Assembly: GCA_021776235.1 (NCBI GenBank)
Contig: JAJFGG010000064.1
Coordinates: forward strand, 1 to 63,208
Direction of reading: 5' to 3'
DNA length: 63,208 nucleotides
From: Alphaproteobacteria bacterium
Lineage (GTDB): Bacteria > Pseudomonadota > Alphaproteobacteria > GCA-2731375
Shown here: positions 17,598-63,208 of the stretch, piece by piece
Position numbering within the stretch: position 1 is the stretch's first letter
Layout of the letters: each line of letters starts with the position of its first letter
The notes under the pieces: model-generated
The model's database searches: none
What the model was told of the DNA's origin: nothing
The model's input: only the letters and a program-made list of their open reading frames with translations
Position numbers and translations under genes: made by a program

Positions 17598-17747
17598 GGA
17601 AACCTTAGACCAGACGGCGGAGACAGGGTCAACCTGGACGGCGTCCTCTATAACTGGTCGTTTGATTGCCACCAGCAATGGGACATCCGGAAGGTCGCTC
17701 GTCGGTTGCGATGCAGCAATGCCCGTTAGGGCGATTCGTGATAGTTA

Positions 17748-18008
17748 TACCACCTTGCAATGATAGGAACCCATATAGACGCCTTGCGGGCGTTTTCGGG
17801 TAGGAGCGTGCGACGTAGCGATACGGGGTATCGTCAGTCGTGTGCGACGCCGTCCGAAAACTTCCGCAAGGCGCCGTTCCGGTCGCCTCCGCGCAGCCTC
17901 GGATGGCGTCGTGAAGGCTTGACGATGTCCCACATCGTCCGCGCCTCCTCTCCTACCCGAGGCAGCGCGGAGACGATCTATATGGGTTCCTATCATTGTA
18001 AGGTGGTA
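17748..18008. mobile_element. MITE-like element, 261-bp full-length imperfect palindrome
   Basis: The ends are 31-bp terminal inverted repeats (17748-17778 and 17978-18008) with one mismatch, beginning TACCACCTT. The trinucleotide TTA flanks both sides (17745-17747 and 18009-18011), as expected of a target-site duplication. Inside, the two halves remain complementary at reduced identity, so reading frames on both strands give similar short peptides (both begin MIGTHID and end YMGSYHCKVV). Two tight hairpins stand out: CGATAC-GGG-GTATCG (left half) and CGATGT-CCC-ACATCG at 17923-17937. No transposase, so a non-autonomous element. Confidence 0.85.
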
Positions 18009-18073
18009 TTAGGTGCGTCCGTGGCGCAGCCGGCAGGATGACATTGGGAAAGGGCGTTTGGCAGGGCAGGGCC

Positions 18074-18334: not shown

Positions 18335-18408
18335 TGGAGGCGCGGACCGGAATCGAACCGGTGTTCACGGCTTTGCAGGCCGCTGCGTAACCACTCCGCC
18401 ACCGCGCC
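18335..18408 (-). tRNA. tRNA-Cys (anticodon GCA)
   Basis: On the minus strand the acceptor GGCGCGG pairs with CCGCGCC. The anticodon arm contains CTGCAAA (anticodon GCA) and the T arm GGTTCGATTCC. The 3' end is U73 followed by an encoded CCA, as expected for tRNA-Cys. 74 nt including CCA. Confidence 0.95.
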
Positions 18409-62965: not shown

Positions 62966-63208
62966 TCATTTGATGGCTTAGTGTCGTCACCGAAGGCTGG
63001 CTACCAAGGGCCCGTGGCGCGGTTCCAGTATTTGGATGATGCCCCGGGGTTATTCGCCTACCAAGAGCATGTCGCGGCTATTGTGATTCATTTGATGGCG
63101 CGGCCAAGCCATTGGGGTAGGCGTGCGGTGCGGCGCGATGTGGGACATCGGGCAAGCCGCGCAACGCAGCCCAATGGCCTGGCCGCGCCACCGAAGGCCG
63201 GATTTCCA
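62966..63208. repeat. Palindromic repeat element with an empty and a filled copy
   Basis: Unit ends TCATTTGATGGC and CACCGAAGGCYGG occur twice. The first copy (62966-63000) has only about 10 bases between them. The second (63088-63201) is split by a hairpin whose arms, GGCGCGGCCAAGCCATTGGG (63097-63116) and its near-complement (63170-63189, one mismatch), enclose 53 bases. That loop contains CGATGTGGGACATCG (63136-63150), the reverse complement of a core in the MITE at 17748. It may continue past the window. Confidence 0.7.

Follow-up and report, generated by a model that had tools for sequence, protein, structure and literature searches.

Position and architecture of the element

The window, that is, the whole 63,208-nucleotide stretch of DNA that was analysed, corresponds to contig C135 of a 6.36-Mb genome and carries at positions 17748–18008 an element of 261 bp. 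A further element begins close to the window end. The features assigned to the two are the following:

17745–17747, no strand: left copy of the target triplet TTA, from flank reading and empty sites in relatives
17748–17779, plus strand: left terminal inverted repeat, which is the 5′ side of stem P1, 32 nt
17780–17873, plus strand: arm 1 hairpin, from fold and covariation (helices 2–7)
17787–17864, plus strand: hairpin unit U, copy 1, in plus-strand sense, from covariance model R2 and sequence HMM
17803–17806, plus strand: GGAG half of the conserved internal loop (tandem G.A) in U copy 1, with partner CGAC at 17845–17848 (alignment A3, columns 17–20 and 62–65)
17874–17882, plus strand: central mini-hairpin of 3 bp, from fold and covariation (helix 8)
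17883–17976, plus strand: arm 2 hairpin, from fold and covariation (helices 9–12)
17892–17969, minus strand: hairpin unit U, copy 2, in minus-strand sense, from covariance model R2 and sequence HMM
17977–18008, plus strand: right terminal inverted repeat, which is the 3′ side of stem P1
18009–18011, no strand: right copy of the target triplet TTA, from flank reading
63063–63208, plus strand: second element, cut off by the window end, whose end type differs (AAGAGCATGTCGCGGCTATTGTG; AGAGCATGTCGCGGC) and which has one U, at 63104–63181

Segment 17748–17778 is identical to the reverse complement of 17978–18008 at 30 of 31 positions, which confirms the palindrome with 31-bp ends and one mismatch described in an initial annotation of this DNA; over 32 nt, identity extends to 31 positions. 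Set against its reverse complement without gaps, the entire element is identical at 168 of 261 positions (71% by BLAST), and inverted 14-mer seeds within 300 bp numbered nine over the whole window versus none in each of five mononucleotide shuffles. Two ORFs overlap the element, at 17760–18041 on the plus strand and at 17745–17996 on the minus strand. A minus-strand tRNA gene (66.5 bits with the Rfam tRNA family) is found near the insertion, at 18338–18408. Two relatives (loci L112 and L113) possess an extra ORF, of 281 and 308 amino acids, respectively, just left of the insertion site, which is absent from the window genome (compared with window positions 17650–17740) and by eye has the look of a DMT-type transporter.

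Copies, target duplications and empty sites

BLAST searches with the element yielded 83 matches in its own genome, the reverse matches of the palindrome included, of which 15 were near full length. Matches were present in 13 of 96 genomes (its own included), namely in the 11 of the genus, in one more from its family and in one from a different family. Flanking triplets were counted for copies from the own genome and its relatives after exclusion of five of 41 rows, which comprised spurious long spans, one doubled row and one copy without a left flank. Among the remaining 36 copies, 25 had identical triplets at both flanks (TTA in 12, TAA in 10, TCA in two and TGA in one), and 32 had TNA on both sides. 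The bases beside the TACCA tip varied among copies and mostly matched within one copy.

For the empty-site search, 12 insertion sites of the own genome were compared, as joined flanks, with the genus, and six of them were then aligned base by base. The site of copy L002 was empty with exactly one TAA in seven of ten same-genus relatives and with TAG in an eighth; relative G006 retained, beside TAA, a short piece of the right end of the element (locus L419), probably through loss of a shared insertion, and the tenth gave no spanning match. A single TAA occupied the site of copy L006 in G004, and a single TCA that of copy L007 in G006. At the site of copy L003, the element was missing in relatives, which displayed TAC, CAG, TGA, CAA, AAC or a gapped triplet rather than TAA, and the site of copy L010 aligned poorly. 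The window's own site contained one triplet in relatives, which was not TTA, namely GTA in G006 and G010, TCA in G004, GCA in G002 (read by eye) and GCG in G007.

With its terminal inverted repeats, target duplication and dispersed copies lacking a transposase, the 261-bp element is a non-autonomous DNA transposon, i.e. a miniature inverted-repeat transposable element (MITE), which inserts with a 3-bp TNA duplication. The initial annotation had proposed a multicopy MITE with TTA as the target duplication, and both proposals stand, given the 15 near-full-length copies, the matching flanks and the empty sites with one triplet. Neither of the findings that it had named as contrary, a single copy or the lack of a single-triplet empty site, occurred.

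Own-genome copies L008 and L010 carry a GC-rich, hairpin-like insertion of 24–25 nt in arm 1, for a total of 285–286 bp. The own genome further contains many solo ends and short end-to-end palindromes of these end types, such as one of 58 bp in L403; these loci (L042, L046, L052–L055, L058–L060 and L401–L417) include some that by eye seem to lie near gene starts.

Cloverleaf fold and the hairpin unit U

RNA folding of the element gave −166.7 kcal/mol, with a z-score of −14.3, and none of 200 shuffles was equally stable. The copy set used for the cloverleaf omitted copies outside 250–295 nt or with TGCCA ends, and L008 and L010 were kept out of alignment A1. In the consensus of 29 aligned copies, a terminal stem of 32 bp closes off two long arms and, at the centre, a small hairpin, with 96.7% of cells paired and two-sided changes at 50 of 101 pairs, matched by none of 500 shuffles; when the pairings were slid along the same alignment, at most 46.2% were paired. 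The element is palindromic overall, yet a cloverleaf is the better description. Searches against Rfam found no family match over the element at E values up to 1 and none at the gathering score for 11 diverse loci.

The interior consists of two inverted copies of a conserved 78-nt hairpin, designated U, at mostly fixed spacing, which form the cloverleaf under the terminal stem. Alignment A3 contains 45 units, obtained from 52 diverse units by dropping seven, with three odd units and those more than 80% alike having been left out before. Across these 45 units, two-sided changes affect 22 of 25 pairs, and the GGAG/CGAC loop, in which tandem G.A pairs are possible, is almost invariant. The U covariance model identified 128 matches in the own genome at E values up to 0.01, spread over several end types.

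Occurrence of the core behind different ends

Covariance model R1 matched 32 of 385 sampled genomes of the class, the own included, with at most five candidates scored per genome. Many of the elements found class-wide have the same architecture with quite different terminal repeats, often beside CTAG rather than TNA. One of the 32 genomes (G175) has at locus L146 (E value 1.4e-9) a U-like hairpin between two CGTC-type REPs; this match is doubtful, weak and possibly due to chance. Ends from 143 elements were sorted into 29 leader clusters, 13 of them singletons and some only register-shifted; an earlier clustering had been dropped, as almost everything merged through chaining. By our conservative reading, the core lies behind no fewer than eight terminal repeats that clearly differ, at TNA or CTAG targets. 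Full elements of the own genome alone exhibit at least four end types, namely TACCAC, TACCAATGGTCC, CTAG-AGCATTTCC and CTAG-TGTCCTGGG, and mostly span 261–271 bp. When all loci are pooled, 125 of the 143 distinct full elements have lengths of 255–280 bp, part of the target included.

In its first round, a sequence-only HMM detected U in 79 of the 96 elements; after iteration on the same set the number was 88, with U in both arms, as inverted copies, in 64 and in one arm in 24. A scan of named genomes with the U pattern returned at least 116 stretches, 80 of which were listed, with Rhodospirillales, Kiloniellaceae, Pelagibius, Marivibrio, Inquilinus, Methylobacterium and Novosphingobium among their titles. 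U was present in 78 of these 80 loci, in 29 of them alone and often at contig ends; of 48 adjacent plus/minus pairs, 40 start 95–120 nt apart and none more than 229. A U pair was also seen at L313 (CP051228.1), a possibly mislabelled record named for a non-proteobacterium (Mesoflavibacter sp. isolate ih5). The conserved part of these elements is the hairpin core and not the ends.

Candidate transposase

Plasmids of Methylocapsa polymorpha and Sinorhizobium fredii carry insertion sequences of 843 and 847 bp, respectively, with ends matching GGGTCCGGACCCATTAATT and CTAG on both sides. The end type GGGTCCGGACCC, found in related elements, is the end of these IS5-family insertion sequences. The Methylocapsa element is annotated as an IS5 family transposase, and DUF4096 is matched by open frames of both elements. 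In the Sinorhizobium element, the second frame hits DDE_Tnp_1 as well as the NCBI IS5-family model; the first frame alone falls just below the cut-off of the latter. Only about 20 bp are common to these insertion sequences and the repeat. IS5 comprises groups defined as IS1031-like and IS427-like, and a TNA target duplication, found here in the 32 copies given above, characterizes the former.

The F plasmid of Sphingopyxis alaskensis harbours a 264-bp element with similar ends, in which the structure model recognizes U with an E value of 6.7e-6. Plasmids from Sphingobium, Novosphingobium and Phaeobacter carry relatives of this element; those from Sphingobium and from Phaeobacter were given to the structure model, which found U with E values of 1e-5 and 4e-5. 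In none of the five plasmid loci searched, the Sphingopyxis element included, did the sequence HMM detect U; there, U was picked up by the structure model alone. None of the plasmid matches that have a gene table is annotated under the match.

The initial annotation had also predicted a parent transposon elsewhere, which the searches of the own genome did not support. No autonomous element with TACCA ends or U was found there by end patterns among the matches listed, by end loci without U and by two transposase domains. Related elements with the GGGTC end type do have autonomous relatives. A single apparently complete IS5-type element was seen in the own genome, at C157:17759–18609 (L064); its 22-bp ends are perfect (GGGTCTGTGG; TCTAGGGTCTGTGGACATTTAG) but are not of the TACCA type. 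Nor was U seen inside an autonomous transposon in the named and plasmid loci examined. Plasmids gave no match to the window element or to a second element of the own genome, and of four other end sequences, three had no plasmid match and one did. No autonomous element with TACCA ends was identified on plasmids, where matches with an E value of 4 were treated as chance, and phages searched with the window element yielded no match. The ends shared with IS5-family insertion sequences make IS5-family transposases the likely movers of these elements in trans, and the window copy itself would also have an IS5-type mobilizer.

Probable link to Correia elements

In a phylum-wide sample, U was recovered at E values up to 1e-4 in 13 of 398 genomes, the own included, three of which belong to other classes; in these three, U is single and the hairpins span approximately 86–120 nt. 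Similar sequences occur in Cupriavidus, Eleftheria, Paraburkholderia and Undibacterium, by name beta-proteobacteria, and at no fewer than 40 places in each of two Neisseria gonorrhoeae records. We take the gonococcal sequence to be a Correia element. Its CCGGTACGG end is as given in PMC2649163.

When the gonococcal core was compared with seven units that carry a single U and come from outside the alpha-proteobacteria, the best score was 64 versus a shuffled mean of 18.7, and none of 1000 shuffles reached it. The alpha U model detected six of these seven units with E values from 1e-9 to 8e-7 in 24.6 kb, and the seventh, Cupriavidus L460, with 0.0025. Comparison of the seven units with the 45 alpha units was mixed, the mean score being reached by 0–8 of 300 shuffles and the best score by 1–60 of 300. 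For the gonococcal copy against the alpha units directly, 6 of 1000 shuffles reached the mean and 70 of 1000 the best. The alpha U model scored the gonococcal copy with 9.6 bits and an E value of 1.4, which is not significant, and the Paraburkholderia copy L462 with an E value of 3.8. Because the direct model match is not significant, homology between U and the Correia core rests on the single-U intermediates, by which U is probably present in Correia repeats.

Searches of the open-licence literature pointed to no earlier description of one core common to elements with different ends, nor of alpha-proteobacterial cores of the Correia type, and the inverted-dimer form of such a core was not met there either.

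Strand bias and proposed function of U

Mismatch-type pairs were counted in the 45 diverse units in the sense of U. Stem B has 35 G.T and 10 A.C, versus shuffled means of 44 and 39, and the difference was reached in none of 1000 shuffles. Stem A has 45 G.T and 32 A.C, and stem C 16 and 1, without excess in either case (770 and 425 of 1000 shuffles, respectively, reach the difference). The terminal stem P1, which lies outside U, has 20 and 13. Counted in the U sense of each arm separately, G.T to A.C ratios are 54:0 and 24:3 within the genus, and 35:4 and 28:9 elsewhere. Since the bias follows the U sense in both arms and these lie on opposite strands, one transcript could not be selected for both. 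By the same arrangement, a transcript entering from either side holds one sense U. The bias fits RNA and single-stranded DNA alike and cannot separate them; we infer that selection acts on a single-stranded fold, more likely of RNA than of DNA.

We consider it fairly probable that the element is a MITE which depends on an IS5-type transposase for movement in trans and which carries a Correia-type hairpin twice, so that a transcript from either side includes one sense copy. An IS5-type transposase would move it in trans, the core would have been passed between different transposon ends, and transcription of neighbouring genes through the element would produce an RNA in which U folds. By analogy with Correia, U may then be a processing or stability signal that makes the insertion tolerable or useful. 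This proposed function is suggested by the binding or cutting of Correia transcripts by RNase III, as reported in PMC2649163. In a more tentative extension, to which we give slightly less than an even chance, U would be an old free-standing structured module of Proteobacteria that travels among transposon ends, with single-U forms (Correia and the beta relatives) and the inverted dimers of alpha-proteobacteria making up one hairpin-defined superfamily whose carriers spread through the function of the hairpin.

Alternative explanations

The most serious competitor, which we nevertheless regard as unlikely, is that U acts as a single-stranded DNA hairpin recognized in transposition or replication in the manner of REPINs, with the core driving mobility and the ends being secondary. 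Selection of U in its own sense on both strands, the narrow spacing of most plus/minus pairs in the listed named loci and the persistence of the core while terminal repeats vary are all in keeping with this view; the matching TNA or CTAG flanks, together with the precision of the empty sites, instead indicate that a DDE transposase acts on the ends, elements with a single U spread too, and RNA also typically contains tandem G.A loops and central loops like UUCG. There is a smaller chance, a low one in our estimation, that pairing is merely maintained by DNA-level correction between arms, through gene conversion or template switching, and that the fold lacks a function. The little or absent strand bias in P1 and in basal stem A would agree with such correction, as would the variable end bases that change together within each copy. 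Stem B, however, avoids A.C and not G.T, the stems of each arm pair within that arm, and U is recognizable across families and classes though its stems vary.

The same interior behind different ends is likewise difficult to reconcile with an ordinary MITE, that is, an internal-deletion derivative of one insertion sequence without a special core, and so is the limited overlap, of some 20 bp, with the IS5 elements that have matching ends. Short length, many copies, terminal repeats and target duplication are what such a derivative would show, and the initial annotation had expected a parent transposon; simple descent from one parent leaves the shared interior out of account, and we consider this already disfavoured reading improbable. 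Least credible of all, and practically negligible in our judgement, is a coding insertion akin to Rickettsia palindromic elements, with both strands open and the reading frame kept. The 261 bp plus 3 bp add up to 88 codons, the window copy is open on both strands, and several predicted frames reach up to elements, which a crude context script cannot place inside or outside genes. Against this, only 13 and 15, respectively, of the 31 full-length copies lack stops in the two overlapping frames, and copy lengths range from 258 to 286. A coding function was rejected on the lack of frame conservation, and the initial annotation was right to warn of a false protein here.

Bacterial MITEs are usually classed by their ends and viewed as trimmed insertion sequences; here, the core is conserved and the ends appear exchangeable. 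A core with exchangeable ends would tie the Correia elements of Neisseria to a broad range of alpha- and beta-proteobacterial repeats, and the reason why it is kept, be it RNA processing or a part in mobility, becomes testable. Models R1 and R2 can be used to annotate these repeats and to remove spurious ORFs.

Comparison with known systems

Rickettsia palindromic elements and CIR repeats are likewise palindromic repeats of alpha-proteobacteria. Unlike the former, the window element is not conserved as coding sequence. CIR repeats have GANTC methylation sites near their ends, whereas the window element has none and the mean over 31 copies is 0.1 per copy. As in IS5-family MITEs, related elements have TNA or CTAG targets and one end type (GGGTCCGGACCC) is borne by IS5 elements, but the TACCA ends of the window element were found on no IS5 element, and past the ends the interior shows no likeness to these insertion sequences.

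REP/REPIN and CGTC-tagged repeats, as described by Di Nocera (2013; PMC3733652), are inverted hairpin pairs with conserved unpaired tags, common in alpha-proteobacteria, as here. According to the same text, REP units are tagged palindromes of 20–40 bp, in contrast to the 78-nt units within a 261-bp element that has terminal repeats and a target duplication. A GGCGTCG in the reverse strand had raised the option that U is a CGTC-tagged REP, which was rejected on size and structure.

Correia elements, or NEMIS, of Neisseria are like the window element in being MITEs with a conserved core hairpin. They have a single core, lengths of 71–157 bp (PMC2649163) and other ends, whereas the window element spans 261 bp and combines two inverted cores with TACCA ends and a TNA target.
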